Source of the DNA: Roseovarius autotrophicus
GTDB taxonomy: Bacteria; Pseudomonadota; Alphaproteobacteria; Rhodobacterales; Rhodobacteraceae
Length of the DNA: 64,000 nucleotides
Reading direction: 5' to 3'
Assembly (NCBI RefSeq): GCF_018069895.1
Contig: NZ_JAGQDH010000014.1
Coordinates: 1 to 64,000 of the forward strand
The notes under the pieces are model-generated. The model saw only the letters and a list, made by a program, of their open reading frames with translations, was not told the origin of the DNA and did not search any database. A program made the position numbers and the translations under genes. Each line of letters opens with the position of its first letter. The stretch's first letter is position 1. Shown here one piece after another: positions 7,587-57,396 of this stretch.

Positions 7587-8456
7587 TTAACGAAGTGTTG
7601 GCGGTTCCACGAAATCTGTCCCGGATACGGCCGGGTCGCGTGTCAGCCCCGCGAAATCGAACAGTTTGGGATCAAGAAGATGCGAGGGCCGTGCATTCAT
7701 CAGGGCGCGGAACATGACCTGACGGCGACCGGGGCTGCGTGATTCCCAGCCGTCGAGGATCTGTTTGACCTGCTGGCGTTGCAGGCCGTCCTGCGAGCCG
7801 CAGAGGTCACAGGGGATGATCGGATAGTTCATCGCCCGCGCGAATCGCTCGCAATCCACCTCGGCCACATGAGCGAGCGGGCGATAAACGAAAAGATCGC
7901 CCTCTTCGTTCACCAGTTTGGGCGGCATCGTCGCCAGCCGCCCGCCGTGAAAGAGGTTCATGAAGAAGGTTTCGAGAATGTCGTCGCGGTGATGGCCGAG
8001 AACGACCGCCGTGCAGCCCTCTTCGCGGGCGATGCGGTAGAGGTTGCCCCGGCGCAGGCGCGAACACAGGGCGCAGTAGGTGCGCCCCTGCGGCACCTTG
8101 TCCATGACGATGGAATAGGTGTCCTGATATTCGATCCGGTGGGGCACGCCCATCCGTTCGAGAAATTCGGGCAGGACGGTGGCCGGAAAACCGGGCTGGC
8201 CCTGATCGAGATTGCAGGCGAGCAGATCCACGGGCAGAAGGCCGCGCCATTTCAGCTCATACAGCACGGCGAGGAGGGTATAGCTGTCCTTTCCGCCCGA
8301 GAGGCAGACCAGCCATTTGCCGCCCGGCGCGATCATGCCGTATTGCTCGATCGCCTCGCGCACGTTGCGCACGATGCGTTTGCGCAGCTTGCGGAATTCG
8401 GTGCCCGTGGGGGCGCCGTGAAAGAGCGGGTGAATCTCGTCATCGACATCGGACAT
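7587..8456 (-). CDS. ttcA: tRNA 2-thiocytidine(32) synthetase TtcA
   Basis: Adds sulfur to cytidine 32 of tRNA, using ATP and an iron-sulfur cluster. The 289-residue chain has the PP-loop [10 protein letters not shown] near residue 54, the paired cysteines [10 protein letters not shown] in the middle and CDLCGSQ later, and the HHRDD motif, as in E. coli TtcA. The C-terminal [19 protein letters not shown] is also typical of the family. It lies 40 bp downstream of the GGDEF-like gene on the same strand. Confidence 0.95.
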
Positions 8457-49808: not shown

Positions 49809-50186
49809 ATGGGATGGTGTATGAGCGCCAGACCTCGGAGAGGCTCGGTCTCTCGGTCAGGCTGCCACGGCGGGCAGCCTGTGGTTGGGAGTATCCGTGA
49901 TGCGGGCGAGCGGTTCCCGGTCCGAGAGACAGCATTTGCAGCCGAAACACCGCCTGCGCGCGAGGTTTTGGCCGCCAGCCGCACCATGAAGGGCGGTGGT
50001 GCGGCGGGTGTGGCGACAGTGGGGGCCGCCGGGGTCGAGGTCGTGCAGGCCGAGACCCAGACCGCCATCCTGCCGCTGGTCCCGTATCTCGATACCCTGC
50101 GCTGGGTGTTCATCGCGCTGGCGCTCGCAGGGATTGCAGTTGCGATCTGGGCGCGCCTTGATGACTGGAAACGGGGGCGGCGGTGA
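49809..50186 (+). pseudogene. Prophage lysis-cassette remnant (C-terminal holin/lysozyme-like membrane segment)
   Basis: The last about 65 codons read ...VVQAETQTAI, PYLDTLRWVFIALALAGIAV and WARLDDWKRGRR, a membrane segment with a basic tail as at the C-terminus of phage endolysin/holin proteins of Rhodobacteraceae prophages. The earlier part has no recognised domain. Its end overlaps a GTG-started Rz-like frame (50183-50308) that is cut after about 28 codons. A diverged second copy lies at 57067-57174. Confidence 0.5.
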
Positions 50187-50349
50187 TTGCCGCGCTTCTG
50201 ACCGGGTTTGCAGCCAGTCCGTGTATGCGGGCGGCGCTGCGCTACGGCACCACCGTGGCGATCTGGACACGGTGCGGTCAATGCAACCCGAATTCTGCCA
50301 TCAACTGACGGCGATAGCCTACAAAACCCGTGTCGTTGCGGTCGCGCGG
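50151..50349. repeat. 199-bp direct repeat, left copy
   Basis: Identical base for base, as far as I can compare by eye, to 57139-57337. It holds the end of the prophage remnant, an Rz-like stub and the last 24 codons of the ABC ATPase gene on the minus strand. The left flank of the two copies is similar but clearly diverged. Confidence 0.93.
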
Positions 50350-51048
50350 GCGGGGCAGGTCCACGTCAATGAGGCGGATGGCGTCGCCCTTGGTGCCCGG
50401 AAGGACCAGCACCCGGTCGGCCAGAAAGATCGCCTCTTCGAGGTCATGGGTGACCAGCACCATCGTCACCTTTTCCTCGTGCCAGATGCGGGTCAGCTCC
50501 TCTTGCATGGTCATCTTGGTCATGGCGTCAAGTGCGCCCAACGGCTCATCCAGCAGCAGGATTTCGGGCTGGACGGTCAGGGCGCGGGCGATGCCCACCC
50601 GTTGCGCCATGCCCCCCGATAGCTGCCGGGGCCAGGCGGCCTCGAACTCGGCCAGACCGACAAGGCGGATATAGCGTCGCGCCCGCTCGGCCGCCTCCGG
50701 TTTCGGCACGCCCTGCACCTCCAGCCCGAAGGCCACGTTATCGAGCACCGTGAGCCAGGGCAGTAGGCGCGGCTCCTGAAAGATCACCGCGCGCTCGCGC
50801 CCCAGCCCGTGAACCGGCGCGCCGTCGGTCAGCACGTCGCCCGTATCCGGCTCTTCCAGACCGGCCAGCACGCGCAAAAGCGTCGTCTTGCCCGAGCCGG
50901 AGGCCCCCACGATCGCAAGGCTCTCGCCACCGCGAATATCAAGATTGATCCCCTTGAGGACGGTCAGCGTCTCGCCGTCAAGGGGGAAGCTCTTGGTGAG
51001 ATCACGGATCGTGACCTCACCCTTCGCCTGTGTCTGCACCAGCGTCAT
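50278..51048 (-). CDS. Sulfonate/nitrate/taurine-type ABC transporter ATP-binding protein
   Basis: A 256-residue ATPase: Walker [14 protein letters not shown]-loop VIFQEPRLLPW, signature LSGGMAQRVGIARAL, Walker B ILLLDEPLGALDAMTK, switch His in VTHDLEEA. The QEPRLLPWLTV motif is typical of the SsuB/TauB/NrtD group. Its last 24 codons are in the 199-bp repeat, so a truncated copy of this 3' end exists at 57266-57337. It closes a minus-strand operon with a binding protein, permease and monooxygenase. Confidence 0.92.
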   Translation of the reverse strand: MTLVQTQAKGEVTIRDLTKSFPLDGETLTVLKGINLDIRGGESLAIVGASGSGKTTLLRVLAGLEEPDTGDVLTDGAPVHGLGRERAVIFQEPRLLPWLTVLDNVAFGLEVQGVPKPEAAERARRYIRLVGLAEFEAAWPRQLSGGMAQRVGIARALTVQPEILLLDEPLGALDAMTKMTMQEELTRIWHEEKVTMVLVTHDLEEAIFLADRVLVLPGTKGDAIRLIDVDLPRPRDRNDTGFVGYRRQLMAEFGLH

Positions 51049-51059
51049 CGCGTCCGGCC

Positions 51060-52037
51060 TCAGTTCGTGGCGGGCGCATCGCCCGTGATCAACAGGATGT
51101 CGGCGGCGGCAAGCTGTCCCTCGCGCAACGCGCCTTCGCGCACCAGAACATCGATCCAGAACTGCACGTCCCGCTCAACCGGCAGACCGCCCTCCCGCAC
51201 GCCGAAACCTGCGAAGAACTTGGCCACCTGCGGGTTTTCTCCGCGTGCCTCAAGCAGTTTGGCAATGATTTCACGGGTCTTTTCCGGGTTCTCGCGGGCG
51301 TAATCGAGTGCACGCGCCGATTTCTCGACAAAGTGGCGGGCGGCCTCTGGGTGGGCCTCGACCCAATCGCGGCGCAATACGGCAAAGCCGCCCGCGATCT
51401 CGCCCAGAATGTCGGTGTCATCAAACACCGCGCGCAGACCGCCATTCGCGCGCGCCGCGCCCTCGAACGTCGTTTGCCAATAGCCAAAGGCGGCGATGTC
51501 CACCTGTTTCGAACGCAGCACCTGCTCAAGCTGCGGCCCCGGCACCACCACCAGATTGGCGGCGTTCTGCGGCAGCCCTTGCTGATGCAGCGCCTCGCGG
51601 ACCGTATAATCGAGATGTGCGCCAAGTGTGTTCACAGCGATGGTCTTGCCCTTGATATCCGCGATGGATTTGATCGGGCTGTCCTCCAACACATGAAAGA
51701 CCGACTGCGCATCATCGTTGATGCCGTTGGTCGGATAGGCGGCGACGAAATCATTGCCGCCGGCGATGGCGTTGATGATTGCCGAAGTGGCCGCCGAGCC
51801 GATATCGACGCTGCCCGCAGCCAGAGCAAAGAGCGACTCCGGCCCGCCCCCGGCATAGCCCAAGCCTTCGAAGTTCACGCCGGTGCCCTCGAAAAAGCCA
51901 AGCTCCTTGGCCAGTTCATGCGCCGACACGCCGCCATGATAGGAGAGGTAGCGCAGGGTCACGTCCTCGGCCTGTGCCGTGGCAGCCGAAAGCGACAGGG
52001 CGACGCCCGCGATGATGGATTTGAAGCGATAGGTCAT
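51060..52037 (-). CDS. ABC transporter substrate-binding protein (SsuA/TauA/NrtA-like)
   Basis: A 325-residue periplasmic protein with a signal peptide (KSIIAGVALSLSAATAQAED). The mature chain shows AHELAKELGFFEGTGVNFEGLGYAGGGPES and the loop GKTIAVNTLGAHLDYTVREAL, features of the NMT1/SsuA family that bind sulfonates, taurine, nitrate or pyrimidine precursors. The neighbouring flavin monooxygenase suggests an organosulfur substrate. It lies between the permease and ATPase genes. Confidence 0.88.
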   Translation of the reverse strand: MTYRFKSIIAGVALSLSAATAQAEDVTLRYLSYHGGVSAHELAKELGFFEGTGVNFEGLGYAGGGPESLFALAAGSVDIGSAATSAIINAIAGGNDFVAAYPTNGINDDAQSVFHVLEDSPIKSIADIKGKTIAVNTLGAHLDYTVREALHQQGLPQNAANLVVVPGPQLEQVLRSKQVDIAAFGYWQTTFEGAARANGGLRAVFDDTDILGEIAGGFAVLRRDWVEAHPEAARHFVEKSARALDYARENPEKTREIIAKLLEARGENPQVAKFFAGFGVREGGLPVERDVQFWIDVLVREGALREGQLAAADILLITGDAPATN

Positions 52038-52082: not shown

Positions 52083-52919
52083 TCAGTGCCTGGCCGTGTT
52101 CCAGCGGCAGAGCCGCCTTTGCAGCAGAACCAGAACCCAGTTGGCCGCGAGGCCAAGCCCGGCCAGCAGGAAGATCGCGGCGAACATCAGCGGGATCTGG
52201 AAATTGTATTGCGCGTTCATCACCTGGAACCCGAGGCCCTTGTTGGCCCCGATCATCTCGGCGGCGATCAGCAGCAAGAGCGCGGTCGTGGCCGACAGAC
52301 GCAGGCCCACGAAGATCGCCGGGACCGAGGCCGGCAGCACGACCCGGCGAAAGGTGGTGAGCCGCGCCGCGCCAAAGGTGCGCGCCATCTCGATCAGTTT
52401 GGCATCGACCTCTTTCACACCGCCGATGGTCGCCAGCAGGATCGGGAAAAGCGTGGCCCAGAAGATGACAAAAACCTTCGACGCCTCACCCAGACCCAGA
52501 AGCAGGATGAACACGGGATAAAGCGCCAGCGCCGATGTCTGGCGGAAAAGTTGCAGGATCGGGTCAAGCGCGCGTTCCACTGCGCGGATCTGCCCCATGA
52601 AAAGACCAAGCGGGATGCCGAGCGCGACGGCCGCGAAAAAGGCCAGCCCTGCGCGTTGCAGCGAGATGCCGATATCCCCCACCAACCGCCCCGAGGCGAT
52701 GCCGTTCCAGAGTGCCTGCCCGATACGGTCGAGCGGCGGGAAAACTGCGGGATTGAGAAGCCCGGTGACGCTGGCCACATGCCAGCCCGCGAAGAAGGCA
52801 AGAAGCAACCCGTAATCGGCGAAGATGCCACGCGCCCGCTGTGCTGTCCGCGCCAGCGTGGCCCGAATGTCCGGCCCCCGAGGGGACCGGACGCGCGTAT
52901 CTGAAATCTGATAGGTCAT
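52083..52919 (-). CDS. ABC transporter permease (SsuC-like)
   Basis: A 278-residue inner-membrane permease with six helices. The EAA-type loop is VDAKLIEMARTFGAARLTTFRRVVLPAS near residue 185, typical of the SsuC/TauC group. It follows the monooxygenase gene with a 12-bp gap and would form the membrane channel for this importer. Confidence 0.9.
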   Translation of the reverse strand: MTYQISDTRVRSPRGPDIRATLARTAQRARGIFADYGLLLAFFAGWHVASVTGLLNPAVFPPLDRIGQALWNGIASGRLVGDIGISLQRAGLAFFAAVALGIPLGLFMGQIRAVERALDPILQLFRQTSALALYPVFILLLGLGEASKVFVIFWATLFPILLATIGGVKEVDAKLIEMARTFGAARLTTFRRVVLPASVPAIFVGLRLSATTALLLLIAAEMIGANKGLGFQVMNAQYNFQIPLMFAAIFLLAGLGLAANWVLVLLQRRLCRWNTARH

Positions 52920-52930
52920 GAAAACCTCCT

Positions 52931-54280
52931 TTACTCAGCGGCCTGCGCGGCGCTGCGCGCGGCGGTGTGGCGATTCACGGGATAGGGCAGCCCGAGGTTC
53001 TCGCGCAGGGTGCGCCCCTCATAGGCGGTGCGAAAGAGGCCCCGGCGCTGCAATTCCGGTGTCACAAGATTGATGAAATCGTCCAGCCCGCCCGGCAGCC
53101 AGGGCGGCAGGATGTTGAAGCCGTCAGCAGCCTCGTTCTCGAACCACTCTTGCAGCGTATCGACGATTTCAGTCGGGGTGCCGACCAGCGTGAGATGGCC
53201 GCGCGCAGTGGCGATCCATTGATAGAGCTGGCGGATGCTAAAGCCGTGCTCGTCGGCGATCTGCCGCATCAGGGCTTGGCGCGATTTCATGCCTTCGGTC
53301 TCGGGGGCGGGTGGCAGCGGGCCGTCAAGGTCAAGCCCCTTGAAATCGAGCGTGCCGCCCGCAAGCCCAGCCAGCAGCGCCAGCCCGTCGGCCTCGACGA
53401 TGAGATCGGTCAGTTGCTCGTATTTCTCGCGCGCCTCCGCCGCGGTGCGGCCCACGAAGGGGGCGACGCCGGGCATGATCAGCACATGATCGCGATTGCG
53501 TCCCTTGGCCGCCGCGCGCGCCTTGATGTCGCGATAGAATTCCTGCGCCGTCTCGATCTTCTGATGGGCGGTAAAGATCACCTCGGCGGTTTCGGCGGCC
53601 AGATCGCGCCCGGCCTCGGATTGCCCGGCCTGCACCACCACCGGATGCCCTTGCGGGCTGCGCGAGACATTGAGCGCACCCTTGACGCGGAAGTGCCTGC
53701 CCACATGGTTGGCGTCGTGCAGCCGATCAGGATCGTAGAACGCCCCGCTCTTCTTGTCCCGCAGGAACACGTCATCCTCGAAACTGTCCCACAGCTTTTT
53801 CACCACCTCGACATGCTCGCGCGCACGGTCATAGCGGTCGGCATGGGAAATCTGTTGATCCAGGTTGAAATTCTGCGCCGCTTCCTCTGTCGCGGTGGTG
53901 ACCACGTTCCAGCCCGCGCGCCCGTTCGAGATCAGATCGAGCGAGGCGAATTTGCGCGCTACGGTGAAGGGTTCTTCGTAGGTCGTGGTGTTGGTGGCGA
54001 TGAACCCCAGATGGGTCGTCTGCGTGGCCAGTGCCGCGAACAGCGTCAGCGGCTCAAAGCCTGCGATCTTGGCGCTGCCGCCCTCACGCCCGGCTCCGTT
54101 CGTGGCCAGGCCATCGGCGAGGAAATAGGCGTCAAAAAGCCCGCGCTCGGCGGTCCTCGCCAGGTCTATGTGATAGTCAAGGCTGGTCGCCCCGTCCGCG
54201 CGGGCGTCCGGGTGGCGCCAGGCGGCGACATGCTGTCCGCCACCGGGCAGGAAGGCGCCGAGTTTGATTTGTCTGGTCAT
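52931..54280 (-). CDS. LLM-class flavin-dependent monooxygenase (NtaA/SnaA/DszA type)
   Basis: A 449-residue luciferase-like monooxygenase that uses reduced FMN from a partner reductase. It starts QIKLGAFLPGGGQHVAAWRHPDA, then shows LTLFAALATQTTHLGFIAT, GRAGWNVVTTATEEAAQNF (the FMN-site WNVVT motif), SPQGHPVVVQAGQSE and FNILPPWLPGGLDDF, all diagnostic of the NtaA/DszA branch. The substrate is likely an organosulfur or amino-polycarboxylate compound. It is followed closely by the importer genes. Confidence 0.92.
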   Translation of the reverse strand: MTRQIKLGAFLPGGGQHVAAWRHPDARADGATSLDYHIDLARTAERGLFDAYFLADGLATNGAGREGGSAKIAGFEPLTLFAALATQTTHLGFIATNTTTYEEPFTVARKFASLDLISNGRAGWNVVTTATEEAAQNFNLDQQISHADRYDRAREHVEVVKKLWDSFEDDVFLRDKKSGAFYDPDRLHDANHVGRHFRVKGALNVSRSPQGHPVVVQAGQSEAGRDLAAETAEVIFTAHQKIETAQEFYRDIKARAAAKGRNRDHVLIMPGVAPFVGRTAAEAREKYEQLTDLIVEADGLALLAGLAGGTLDFKGLDLDGPLPPAPETEGMKSRQALMRQIADEHGFSIRQLYQWIATARGHLTLVGTPTEIVDTLQEWFENEAADGFNILPPWLPGGLDDFINLVTPELQRRGLFRTAYEGRTLRENLGLPYPVNRHTAARSAAQAAE

Positions 54281-54367: not shown

Positions 54368-54916
54368 TTAGGCGGCGGCCTCCAGCTTGCGCGGGGTGAG
54401 GGCGGCGCTAAGTTGCGCAACCGCCGTGTCGAGCCGCGCGCGCAATGGCCCCGAGAGCTGCCCGTCACTGCCGATATCAGCAGCACCGGCATAGACGCCC
54501 GTCGGCACGCTCGCGGCCTCGAAGAAGCCAAAGAGCGGACGCAGCTGATGTTCGATCACCAGCGCGTGCCGATCACCACCGCCAGTGGCGGTCAAGAGCA
54601 CCGGTTTGCCGCGCAGGGCCTCGGGGTCAATGAGATCAAAGAGATGTTTGAAAAGGCCGGTATAGCTGCCCTTATAGACCGGGCTGCCGACGACGATGGC
54701 GCGCGCGGCCAAAAGCCTGTCAACATGCGTCCGCGCGTCCGATGAAAGATCAAACAGCGAGTCCGCCTGCCTGAAGGATGCCCCCAGATCACCCAGATCG
54801 AACACCGCATGGCCCGAGCCCGTCTGGCGGGCGGCGCCCTTTACCGCCGCCGTGACGAGGGCGCGGGTGCGCGAGGGCTGGCTGTGGCTGCCGACGAAAC
54901 CGATGATCTCGGTCAT
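54368..54916 (-). CDS. NAD(P)H-dependent FMN reductase (SsuE/MsuE-like)
   Basis: A 182-residue flavodoxin-fold reductase: GFVGSHSQPSRTRALV at the N-terminus (FMN phosphate loop) and VVGSPVYKGSYTGLFKHLFDLI, the SsuE motif. It supplies FMNH2 to the LLM monooxygenase 88 bp downstream. The ATG at 54916 (MTEIIG) has AAAGGAAA before it; the frame opens five codons earlier. The gap upstream (54917-55039) is AT-rich and likely holds the operon promoter. Confidence 0.92.
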   Translation of the reverse strand: MTEIIGFVGSHSQPSRTRALVTAAVKGAARQTGSGHAVFDLGDLGASFRQADSLFDLSSDARTHVDRLLAARAIVVGSPVYKGSYTGLFKHLFDLIDPEALRGKPVLLTATGGGDRHALVIEHQLRPLFGFFEAASVPTGVYAGAADIGSDGQLSGPLRARLDTAVAQLSAALTPRKLEAAA

Positions 54917-54941
54917 GAGCTTTCCTTTCAACGAGCAATTC

Positions 54942-54956
54942 TATCGTGTTTATCGT
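54942..54956. promoter_or_regulatory. TATCGT direct repeat in the promoter region of the reductase operon
   Basis: TATCGT occurs at 54942 and again at 54951, in an AT-rich patch 26 bp before the ATG of the FMN reductase. It may bind a regulator or be part of a promoter. No clear -35/-10 pair with normal spacing is seen. Confidence 0.3.
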
Positions 54957-55039
54957 ATTTACTTTGTGCTCTTGCTGCCATTCCAAAGATACCGGTGAAA
55001 AGAGAGAAAAGATGCCGTCCCGACGCGGCAGGGAGAATG

Positions 55040-55596
55040 TCAGCTTCGCTGTTTGACGATGCCAGCATGACCGCTCAGCGCGCAGGCGAGATCGGCGCAT
55101 TGCAGGCGGATGTCGGGAATCGCGGTGATTTCCCACAGGGCGCCGCGCGCGCAGGGCCCGATGGCGAAGATCCGGCGAGAGGCGACGCCGCCGCGCGCGA
55201 TCACCCGCGCGCCGGGAGTCGTATCCAGCCCGAGGCGCAGCGCAGCCGGTCGTCGCGCCAGGGCGCCACGAGGCTTTCGAGATAGCGGCCATAGGTGGCG
55301 TGGCTGACAAAGCACTGTTCGGTCGCACCGCAATCCTCATCGCGCGTGCGCAGCCAACGCAGGAAATGACCGGGATCGTCGGGAAAGGCGCTCATGTTGT
55401 GAACGCGGGTGTTGAGCAGATGCTCGGGGTTGTCGGTCGCATAGGCGATGCTGCAACCGACGATGCCGCGCTTTTCCACGATGGTGACGCGGATTTCGGG
55501 GGCGCGGTGCATCAGATGCGTCGCCATCAGCGCCCCGCTCGCCCCGCCGCCGATGATCAGCGCATGGCGGGCGGGATGCGCGAATGTGCCGTCCAT
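55040..55596 (-). pseudogene. FAD/NAD(P)-binding protein, internally deleted
   Basis: From ATG 55596 about 120 codons give a normal N-terminus: HALIIGGGASGALMATHLM is the dinucleotide-binding motif, then EKRGIVGCSIAYATDN and LLNTRVHNMSAFPDDP, as in FAD-NAD(P)-binding proteins of 450-500 residues. Around 55225-55250 the sequence jumps, in another frame, to the C-terminal part (RVIARGG, RIFAIGPCARGALWEITAIP). About 270 middle residues are missing, so it is inactive. Its ATG overlaps the stop of the small gene upstream. Confidence 0.8.
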
Positions 55597-55745
55597 CACA
55601 GGGCCCCGAGAATGAGACAGGTGAGCCCAAGGCAGACAAGGCCAAGCACGATCTCACCGCGAGAAGGCAAGGACCCATCCTCGGGCACGCCGTATTCCGG
55701 CGCGCCCAGACCGGCAAGGCCGGGATCGGGGGCGTAGCAGATCAT
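55596..55745 (-). CDS. Small membrane protein, 49 residues
   Basis: ATG at 55745 is preceded by AGGAGGG with seven-base spacing. The product starts MICYAPDPGLAGLGAPEYG, is Pro/Gly-rich, and ends in one hydrophobic segment (IVLGLVCLGLTCLILGAL). Its TGA overlaps the ATG of the FAD protein gene. I do not recognise a family. The strong ribosome site and tight coupling suggest it is a real gene whose partner has decayed. No function is assigned. Confidence 0.6.
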   Translation of the reverse strand: MICYAPDPGLAGLGAPEYGVPEDGSLPSRGEIVLGLVCLGLTCLILGAL

Positions 55746-55765
55746 TGCAATCCCTCCTATCGGGA

Positions 55766-55861
55766 TCAGGTCAGGATGACGATGGCCAGAAGCGTGAGAT
55801 AACTGACCGCGAAAACCGTGATCGGCATGGCGCGGCGGATGCGGTTGAAAACGGGGGTCAT
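55766..55861 (-). CDS. Small membrane protein, 31 residues
   Basis: ATG at 55861 follows AAAGGAGG. The product is MTPVFNRIRRAMPITVFAVS and a further hydrophobic stretch: a basic start followed by a single membrane segment to the C-terminus (residues about 13-31). It ends 20 bp before the 49-residue gene. No family is recognised. Coupling with the next two genes suggests a small-protein/flavoprotein unit. Confidence 0.55.
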   Translation of the reverse strand: MTPVFNRIRRAMPITVFAVSYLTLLAIVILT

Positions 55862-55934
55862 GCGATGGCCTCCTTTCGGGTCAGATGGTCTTGCAGGCTG
55901 GAGTCTGATCATGGGTATTGCCTCCGCTTCAGGA

Positions 55935-56820
55935 TTATTCGGCAACTTCAGTCCGGAACCAATCCTGCGCAGCAAAACCCTCGCCCGCCGCAGGGCGCGG
56001 CAGGCCGAGATGATCACGCAGGGTCGTGCCCTGATAGGCGGTGCGGTAGAGGCCGCGGCGCTGCAACTCCGGGATCACGAGTTCCACGAAACGCTCCAGA
56101 TCACTGGGCAGGACGGGAGCCATGATGTTGAACCCGTCCGCCACCCCGTTTTCGAAACGCGCCTGCATGGCGTCGGCGATGTCGGGGGGGTGCCGGTGAT
56201 CTGCCAGTACCCGCGTGCCCCGGCCATCGACAGGGCCAGATCGAGGATCGAGAGGTTGTCGCGCCGCGCCCGGTCGATCAGCACCTGCTGGCGGCTGACA
56301 TGCCCCACTGAGGCCGGAAGGTCGGGCAAGGGCCCGTGCGGATCAAAGCCCGAGACATCGTGACCCAGTAGGTTCGACAGATGCGAGATCGCGACCACCG
56401 GTTGCAAGAGGTCTTGAAGCGCGGCGAACCTGTCCTCGGCCTCGGCGCGGGTGCGGCCGATCACCGGAAAGATGCCCGGCATGACCAGAACATCGCCCGC
56501 TGCGCGGCCATGCCCGGGCAGGCGGCGCTTGAGATTGCGGTAATAGGCCTGCCCGTCGGCCAGGGTCTGCGTCGCGGTAAACACGCCGTCGGCGCTGCGC
56601 GCGGCCAAAACCTTGCCCGGCTCGGAGGCCCCAGCCTGAAAGATCACCGGGCGGCCCTGTGGGCTGCGCGGCACGTTGAGTGGGCCGCGTACGGCAAAAT
56701 GCGGGCCCTTGTGGTGGATCGGCGCAAAGGCTTCGGGGCGAAAGAACTGCCCCGATACTTTGTCGCGGGGGTACGCGTCATCGGGCCAGCTGTCCGAGAG
56801 GCGGGCGACCACATCAACCG
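55935..56820 (-). pseudogene. LLM-class flavin monooxygenase, 5'-truncated and frameshifted
   Basis: From about codon 150 of a normal NtaA/DszA-type monooxygenase the sequence is recognisable: DSWPDDAYPRDKVSGQFF, VRGPLNVPRSPQGRPVIFQAGASEPGKV, then FNIMAPVLPSDLERFV. A run of seven G bases (56184-56190) has lost one base compared with the expected frame, so the last 75 residues are in another frame. Its 5' part is replaced by a piece of an ABC ATPase. It is a paralogue of the intact gene at 52931. Confidence 0.85.
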
Positions 56821-57060
56821 ACTCTTCGGCGCGCGCCCGCGCCTCGGCCCGCGGCAGCTTGCGCGCCCGGACCAGCGGAAACATGACATTGCCAAGCGCC
56901 GTCTTCCACGGCAGGAGTTGATCGAATTCCTGGAACACGACAATTCAGTCCGGGCCCTGGCCTGGGCCGCTGACGGGTTTTCCACGCAGCAATATGCTGC
57001 CGGAGGCGGGTGCAATAAACCCCGCCACCGCCTTCAGGATGGTGGATTTGCCGCAACCCG
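56820..57060 (-). pseudogene. ABC transporter ATP-binding protein fragment
   Basis: It begins at GCGKSTILKAVAGF (Walker A), continues SGSILLRGKPVSGPG and then, after an in-frame TGA near 56945, VVFQEFDQLLPWKTALGNV, the Q-loop region, before passing into the monooxygenase at about 56820. The start is missing, replaced by the prophage-like segment; signature, Walker B and everything after are missing too. It is a fusion created by deletion. Confidence 0.8.
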
Positions 57061-57066
57061 AGGGCC

Positions 57067-57174
57067 ATGCCATACCTCGACACGCTGCGCTGGCTGTTCA
57101 TTGCTCTCGCGCTGAGCGGGATCGCGGTCACAATCTACGCGCGCCTTGATGACTGGAAACGGGGGCGGCGGTGA
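57067..57174 (+). pseudogene. Prophage lysis-cassette remnant, second copy
   Basis: An ATG opens 35 codons, MPYLDTLRWLFIALALSGIA and a basic tail RLDDWKRGRR, a diverged relative of the end of the 49809-50186 frame (about three quarters identical at the DNA level upstream of 57139, identical after). It abuts the ABC fragment. Confidence 0.5.
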
Positions 57175-57337
57175 TTGCCGCGCTTCTGACCGGGTTTGCA
57201 GCCAGTCCGTGTATGCGGGCGGCGCTGCGCTACGGCACCACCGTGGCGATCTGGACACGGTGCGGTCAATGCAACCCGAATTCTGCCATCAACTGACGGC
57301 GATAGCCTACAAAACCCGTGTCGTTGCGGTCGCGCGG
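57139..57337. repeat. 199-bp direct repeat, right copy
   Basis: Same sequence as 50151-50349, 6,988 bp further along and in the same orientation. Here the ABC ATPase 3' end (57266-57337) is cut short and joins an IS3-type fragment. Confidence 0.93.
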
Positions 57338-57396
57338 CGGATGTCTTTGACGACCTTCTCAGCCTCGGCTTTCGTTGTCACGGGTTTCTTGCTCAT
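57338..57396 (-). pseudogene. IS3-family transposase orfA, N-terminal stub
   Basis: ATG at 57396 on the minus strand gives MSKKPVTTKAEAEKVVKDI, the usual N-terminus of an IS3-type orfA, and stops abruptly at the edge of the 199-bp repeat. The 80 bases to its right, up to about 57475 (with ACTGTCCCATGGGTGCTGAC), look like the IS terminal region. Confidence 0.6.

Follow-up and report, generated by a model that had tools for sequence, protein, structure and literature searches.

Two open frames of 31 and 49 codons, here called s31 and s49, stand before the remains of a flavoprotein gene in the genome of Roseovarius autotrophicus (assembly GCF_018069895.1), within the 64,000-nucleotide stretch that was analysed (contig NZ_JAGQDH010000014.1, positions 1 to 64,000; "the window"). 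Genes of about 30 codons are usually omitted from genome annotation, and the locus raises the question of whether such frames beside a broken gene are genes at all and, if so, which enzymes they accompany and what they may do there. An initial annotation had proposed that, if intact relatives exist, the two frames may form with the flavoprotein an undescribed three-part unit of two small anchors and a soluble flavin enzyme in organosulfur metabolism.

Small Genes and Their Decayed Surroundings

The features of the region are collected in Table 1. The signals noticed by the initial annotation in the two frames are all present: in addition to the AGGAGG ribosome sites, each frame ends in one hydrophobic segment (best 17-residue Kyte-Doolittle mean, 2.60 for s31 and 2.65 for s49 in the window locus, L001), a gap of 20 bp (55746-55765) separates the frames, and the TGA stop of s49 and the GTG/ATG at which the flavoprotein frame begins overlap. 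When the two proteins were compared with Pfam-A and NCBIfam at E-values up to 0.1, no family was matched by either.

Table 1. Features of the s31-s49 region in the window
Feature	Position	Strand	Basis or remark
SsuB-type ATPase gene	50278..51048	-	under equivalog cut-offs
SsuA-type substrate-binding protein gene	51060..52037	-	TIGR01728 115.7 vs 163.5, under cut-off
SsuC-type permease gene	52083..52919	-	under SsuC cut-off
NtaA/DmoA-family LLM monooxygenase gene, intact	52931..54280	-	TIGR03860 576.1 bits vs 279.7, passes
MsuE-like FMN reductase gene, intact	54368..54931	-	TIGR03566 206.6 bits vs equivalog cut-off 212.5
Flavoprotein gene remnant, C-terminal part, out of frame behind 799-bp deletion	55040..55242	-	comparison with intact copy
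PF13454 flavoprotein gene remnant, N-terminal 124 codons	55228..55599	-	profile match and comparison with intact copy
s49, tail-anchored protein gene, 49 aa, N-terminal DPG motif	55596..55745	-	open frame
AGGAGG ribosome site of s49	55753..55758	-	7 bases between its end and ATG
s31, single-pass protein gene, 31 aa	55766..55861	-	open frame; basic N-terminus, then one TM helix
PF06821 hydrolase gene remnant, last dozen or so codons and stop	55858..55901	-	L032 match ends at 55901
AGGAGG ribosome site of s31	55869..55874	-	7 bases between its end and ATG
Second LLM monooxygenase gene, broken, two frames	55935..56938	-	ORFs and profile matches

The flavoprotein gene of the window is indeed decayed, as had been supposed. 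Its fragment is clearly recognized by PF13454 (97.1 bits, cut-off 21.8), and an intact copy that the genome carries at another place shows it to lack 799 bp, at a joint where the two matching blocks overlap by 15 bp, so that the frame is shifted. Upstream, the stop of the hydrolase remnant overlaps the start of s31, and the remainder of that gene is gone. The window copy is thus a relic, a decayed duplicate that cannot produce the flavin enzyme. The two small frames had also been described as lying between monooxygenase genes, and this holds: the broken LLM gene is upstream, and the FMN reductase gene (named only MsuE-like because its TIGR03566 score is just under the cut-off) and the intact LLM gene are downstream. 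The broken LLM gene runs on into fragments of an ABC ATPase gene (window 55935-57073).

The intact copy was found in the genome's 3.68 Mb (83 contigs, G000) at a second place, which is 94% identical to the flavoprotein fragment (query residues 1-126) and lies in a frame of 509 codons. There (L032), genes for a PF06821 hydrolase of 195 residues, s31, s49, and a flavoprotein of 452 residues follow one another in that order, the end of the hydrolase gene overlapping s31, and the second copies of s49 and s31 are 98 and 97% identical to the window versions. Both enzymes pass their family cut-offs (flavoprotein, PF13454, 132.1 bits vs 21.8; hydrolase, PF06821, 172.8 bits vs 22). We take PF06821 to comprise serine hydrolases of the RBBP9/YdeN type. 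The FMN reductase gene of the L032 copy is reduced to about the first 42 codons (match to window 54806-55242), and the two places jointly make up one complete set from the hydrolase through the SsuB-type ATPase, as would be expected if the region was duplicated and each side then lost part of it. The whole region is flanked by a direct repeat of 273 bp (93% identity; window 50082-50353 and 57070-57340), which takes in the last part of the gene for the SsuB-type ATPase together with the sequence behind it, and suggests a past duplication.

Conservation of s49 Before One Clade of Flavoproteins

Related loci were fetched via the flavoprotein from Roseovarius MAGs, Paracoccus, Cypionkella, and others, together with annotated plasmids; in the family searches, each genus is represented by roughly one genome. 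The share of loci with s49 is therefore conditional on the presence of the flavoprotein. A strict scan asked for a ribosome site, a length of 24-95 codons, hydropathy, and a stop adjoining the flavoprotein start; it excluded loci not reaching 1e-20 (such as L010 and L031) and matches without the protein start (L027, L056), counted loci as one where residues 21-80 of the matched core were identical, and left two flavoprotein matches without a locus (G382:C23 and G165:C2) outside the count. An adjacent tail-anchored small frame was found at 22 of 78 distinct flavoprotein loci, the window copy included, vs 0.39% of 1,520 (76 x 20) order-1 randomised upstream stretches scanned in the same way.

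The frames are not scattered over the family. In a tree of 77 rows, an s49-type frame precedes the flavoprotein in 22 of the 33 rows of one clade (bootstrap 98, SH-aLRT 93) vs none of the 44 rows outside; for this count L045 was added by eye, the window copy was excluded, and the paralogue row L016_208 was not counted. Reading of the upstream DNA revealed no s49 at the other 11 members of the clade (L019, L023, L024, L025, L026, L042, L043, L047, L049, L051, and L101). Among these, L019 has kept an N-terminal "DGRFDP" frame but has no TM helix, and L043 has the hydrolase and the flavoprotein and neither small gene. The check that the initial annotation had called for, inspection of the DNA upstream of homologous flavoprotein genes, thus revealed conserved small frames, and the intact relatives on which its proposal hinged exist both in the organism's own genome and in other bacteria.

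Furthermore, the frames are conserved at the amino-acid level. The dN/dS ratio is 0.21-0.33 for s31 (window vs own copy excluded, dS being 0), and for s49 it is 0.19-0.63 among the Roseovarius loci and, for Paracoccus, 0.16-0.82 over four loci (L018 excluded), the value of 0.82 belonging to one Paracoccus pair of low divergence and all others lying at 0.16-0.63; individual values from genes so short are rough. Conservation of the small genes extends over several genera and two orders. The second order is represented by Hartmannibacter, whose plasmid HDIAp1, typed as conjugative, carries the cluster, as would fit horizontal spread. Together, s31 and s49 are genuine conserved genes.

Of 394 family genomes, 177 "matched" a profile of s49 alone at E-values up to 0.1, and most of the listed rows were TM parts within large frames. 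The matches accepted as real are the two copies of the own genome and those in G366 (known before from the other searches), G483, and G393, while L072 (G128) and L092 (G156) were rejected on inspection and a weak match in L025 proved to be the end of a cysE gene. Near a contig end in G250 (L073, 91-183), a partial match covers profile positions 6-36 of 50; it is probably a remnant and was not counted.

Anatomy of the Two Protein Families

The s49 relatives at the 22 loci have 45-75 residues, with a short N-terminal segment followed by a single helix at the extreme C-terminus in nearly all; the L022 protein continues past its helix. The N-terminal segment carries an Asp-Pro-Gly or Asp-Pro motif in 16 of the 22 proteins (counted by eye). 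Since the other six have no DP pair, the case for homology of all 22 owes as much to position as to sequence. In alignment A8, made of 22 sequences (19 from flavoprotein loci, including the window, and one each from G240, G483, and G393; L022, L045, and L100 excluded), D7 is nearly invariant. The relatives of s31 have 31-60 residues, a basic N-terminus with "MNRLFR" or "RIRR" in most, and one helix; the one in L149 prints as 78 residues, its start being uncertain. In the s31 alignment A7 (11 sequences, L045 and L149 excluded), F17 is invariant and position 21 is Tyr in all but one sequence, which has Trp. By the positive-inside rule, the N-terminus of both small proteins would lie inside.

Pairing of the Small Genes With Enzyme Genes

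The hydrolase, which the initial annotation had missed, heads the set: its gene is directly upstream in 17 of the 22 s49 loci, four have no hydrolase there, and one is cut by a contig end. An independent search (E up to 1e-35) found the PF06821 hydrolase in 18 of 389 family genomes. Of the 394 genomes searched for the flavoprotein, 15 matched at E < 1e-100, and 11 of them recur in the hydrolase set (hypergeometric probability 6e-14, a value that ignores ancestry and assumes that all 15 belong to the second sample). Directly behind the hydrolase, an s31-type frame occurs in eight of the 18 hydrolase loci; nine of the 18 have none there, and L151 has an open frame but no start codon. With L003, L004, L012, and L020, s31 is found directly behind the hydrolase in 12 loci overall. 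Five of these (G483, G237, G392, G500, and G240) show no flavoprotein in the stretch seen behind, which in G392 is about 0.5 kb up to the contig end. No s31-type frame without an upstream hydrolase was seen near hydrolase or flavoprotein genes, except in the window, where the hydrolase is a remnant, and in G034, at a contig end. The hydrolase is thus the apparent partner of s31. In G237 (L149), the hydrolase gene and the s31-like frame are followed, by eye, by an MsuE-like FMN reductase gene with neither s49 nor flavoprotein between.

The data therefore favour two modules, hydrolase with s31 and s49 with flavoprotein, which are often joined. The three-part unit first proposed is partly right: the pairing of s49 with the flavoprotein is conserved, at 22 of the 33 clade members; s31, by contrast, is absent from the Paracoccus loci and follows the hydrolase even in loci that show no flavoprotein behind it, and the bare hydrolase-flavoprotein pair of L043 also departs from that unit.

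The pairing is a tendency and not a rule, because s49-type frames occur without a close flavoprotein in three genomes, G240, G483, and G393, in the last of them alone. In G240 (L157), a gene that by eye encodes a KefB/C-like antiporter takes the place of the flavoprotein gene behind hydrolase, s31, and s49. In G483 (L135, about 8295-8450, reverse complement), a 51-residue s49-like frame with a GYDPQF motif and a C-terminal TM segment lies 154 bp upstream of a family 2A encapsulin gene. No PF13454 relative was found in G483 or G393 by a search that had no positive control of its own. As a weak test, encapsulin genes were searched for in 218 family genomes; the only one found is in G240 (G483 was outside this sample), with no s49 before it, so that G483 stays a single case of s49 with encapsulin. 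A different arrangement is seen in L025 (1150-7347), where cysE, a family 2A encapsulin gene, and cysteine desulfurase cargo genes lie directly upstream of a clade flavoprotein without s49.

Sulfur Setting

Locus L013 encodes within 12.4 kb, in order, Rrf2, CysP, CysT, CysW, CysA, Lrp, the hydrolase, s31, s49, the flavoprotein, an MsuE-like reductase, an LLM monooxygenase, SsuC, SsuA, and SsuB. For the copy in the R. autotrophicus genome, the binding protein, CysT, and CysW pass curated cut-offs, and the ATPase was scanned against Pfam alone. Sulfate-transport or MsuE/LLM/SsuCAB genes are present in the fetched stretch of 14 of the 22 s49 loci, two of which (L016 and L017) have just one such gene, and L144 is a fifteenth with weaker importer matches; in the remaining seven no sulfate- or sulfonate-type neighbours were found within the fetched stretches, which differ in length between loci. 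The organosulfur context suggested at the outset accordingly holds for 14 of the 22 loci, as a setting of organosulfur use or sulfate assimilation.

Some further observations concern the surroundings of single loci. An extra frame of 95 residues with two hydrophobic segments lies between CysT and CysW in L012 (412-696); it was seen in none of L013, L014, L138, L099, and L032 and was set aside. In L016 (3538-5047) and L102 (10226-11656), a second and more distant PF13454 paralogue is encoded near LLM or SsuD monooxygenase genes, and the strict scan found no small membrane frames at these paralogues.

The Flavoprotein and Its Nearest Solved Fold

An AlphaFold2 model of the L013 flavoprotein (pLDDT 84.5, from a 15-row alignment) has FzmM, an L-aspartate N-hydroxylase, as its nearest solved fold (Foldseek rank 1; VIA-align Z 26.9, rmsd 3.2 over 426 residues), ahead of further N-hydroxylases and flavin monooxygenases, none of them with a Z above 25.5. 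Like class-B enzymes, the model has two dinucleotide-binding domains with an intervening helical domain. A profile of 49 flavoprotein rows matches the FzmM sequence at 2e-21. FzmM (PDB 8CP2/8CP5), reported from biosynthesis in Streptomyces (PMC10404684), thus resembles the flavoprotein in fold over most of its length, in the two dinucleotide-binding regions, and in the position of a catalytic Asn, whereas identity is about 20% and the helical domain is larger in FzmM. A fold common to the two does not show function.

In FzmM, Asn62 is placed above the flavin C4a, and class B monooxygenases as a rule retain it or have Asp or Glu in its stead (PMC10404684). In the flavoproteins, N63 is invariant in 49 of 49 rows and aligns with Asn62 by count along the profile alignment. 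From the relationship to FzmM and from N63, an NAD(P)H-dependent oxygenase of the class-B type is the best guess for the flavoprotein. An Arg/His run at 284-301, conserved in the helical part, recalls the anion-binding arginines of FzmM; it is a mere lead, because the profile alignment does not reach that part of FzmM. A dithiol-disulfide reductase was also considered and is disfavoured, just one cysteine (C358) being invariant in alignments A3 and A4.

Known Relatives and the Case of Pden_5119

Relatives of s49 are already present in databases as hypothetical proteins with no recorded function. In Paracoccus denitrificans PD1222, one of 48 residues (WP_157137466.1, PDEN_RS27265) is encoded between an alpha/beta hydrolase and an FAD/NAD(P)-binding protein. 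The similar entries WP_157034049.1, WP_157775829.1, and WP_176562832.1 occupy the corresponding place in their own loci; unlike the window, these four loci leave no room for s31. The DPG motif is present in WP_157137466.1 and WP_157775829.1, and WP_176562832.1 fits by position and TM helix alone.

The product of the gene behind the PD1222 flavoprotein, WP_011751337.1, can be aligned along its full 185 residues with PDB 7QW4 (phmmer 2e-119). This structure is that of Pden_5119, described as a paraquat-upregulated, FMN-dependent NADH oxidase of P. denitrificans, and its authors state that it lacks an operon or a monooxygenase partner (PMC9963409). Passages of another study deal with the qox genes and Pden_5119 expression, and with none of the upstream genes (PMC6955949). 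While Pden_5119 was studied singly, the gene order found here on plasmid 1 (L098, 9004-11149) puts it directly behind a flavoprotein of the clade, and suggests that it belongs to the hydrolase-s49-flavoprotein cluster. Further downstream, LLM monooxygenase and importer genes are found. Our literature search returned no paper naming Pden_5117 or Pden_5118, and a query for PF13454/NAD_binding_9 gave one paper, unrelated by title. For the unit as a whole, no title or abstract start pointed to it in a search that is partly weak, since general sulfur papers dominated the results. As far as these searches show, s31 and s49 are an undescribed pair of families.

Possible Roles of the Small Proteins

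Our preferred reading, held with about even confidence, is that s31 and s49 represent two unnamed families of single-pass proteins through which a pair of soluble enzymes, encoded in a sulfur-scavenging operon, is tethered to the membrane. With a cytoplasmic N-terminus and a C-terminal helix, s31 would hold the hydrolase at the inner membrane face, and s49, via its cytoplasmic DPG segment, would hold the flavoprotein, a putative NAD(P)H-dependent flavin monooxygenase of the class-B type. As each enzyme would be tethered by its own small protein, hydrolysis and oxygenation of an imported organosulfur compound could be kept together near the importer. The host operon in Alphaproteobacteria would, in its fullest form, run from Rrf2 through a sulfate importer, Lrp, the PF06821 hydrolase, s31, s49, and the PF13454 flavoprotein to an FMN reductase, an LLM monooxygenase, and a sulfonate-type importer.

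Small single-pass subunits of membrane enzymes are familiar from CydX and KdpF. Like s31 and s49, these are tiny TM proteins sharing an operon with their partner. Unlike here, where the partners look soluble, those of CydX and KdpF are integral membrane complexes.

Small single-pass proteins are known partners of transporters as well, and importer genes lie beside many of the loci, so that s31 and s49 might be accessory subunits of the neighbouring ABC importers instead of enzyme tethers. We regard this as unlikely: the small genes overlap or abut hydrolase and flavoprotein genes and not transporter genes, the importers vary between loci while s49 is constant, and for L015, L021, L022, L100, L141, L142, and L143 the fetched stretch contains no importer of the sulfate or sulfonate type (some show weak ABC matches, which annotation or inspection by eye assigns to different ABC systems). 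The adjacency to an FAD/NAD(P) protein could also mean that the flavoprotein is a dehydrogenase feeding the quinone pool, with s49 and s31 as its membrane subunits, and the neighbouring FMN reductase homologue, Pden_5119, is reported as an NADH oxidase induced by paraquat (PMC9963409). Such an electron-transfer role is improbable in our view, given that the closest solved relative is an oxygenase and the class-B Asn is kept; the lack of any conserved histidine in A7 or A8 speaks against heme as well, though not against a quinone site.

The remaining readings dispense with an enzyme partner. The small proteins may be sensors or regulatory peptides of sulfur starvation that act alone, the enzymes being merely co-transcribed; this would explain why G240, G483, and G393 have kept s49 but no close flavoprotein, in one case next to an encapsulin operon of sulfur metabolism, while the position of s49 directly before the enzyme gene in 22 flavoprotein loci and its tracking of one flavoprotein clade make it rather unlikely. 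That translation of the frames only aids expression of the next gene, the peptides themselves being functionless, would suit their shortness and tight overlaps; with sequence conserved at the amino-acid level, a TM helix and an N-terminal motif kept, and dN/dS below 1, this is very improbable. The broken flavoprotein copy of the window might even have raised the suspicion of chance frames in G+C-rich DNA beside a pseudogene. That reading is scarcely credible: the small frames are conserved across genera and orders and occur at 22 of 78 loci against the trace level in randomised DNA, which already refutes it.

Tethering of the two enzymes thus stays our preferred reading. A bolder and doubtful extension is that dedicated tethers of 31-75 residues build a membrane-held sulfur-scavenging assembly, and that tethers of the s49 type have a place in further systems of sulfur starvation as well, family 2A encapsulin operons for example.

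Cross-genome comparison reveals here two families of tiny genes with clear partners in a setting of sulfur assimilation. Through them Pden_5119, an orphan with a solved structure, gains a likely operon, a monooxygenase-like partner upstream, and a small protein whose role can be tested in P. denitrificans, a bacterium that is readily handled in the laboratory. If the tethers are real, enzymes of sulfur scavenging taken to be soluble would act at the membrane, and the way in which desulfurisation pathways are reconstituted in vitro would change.
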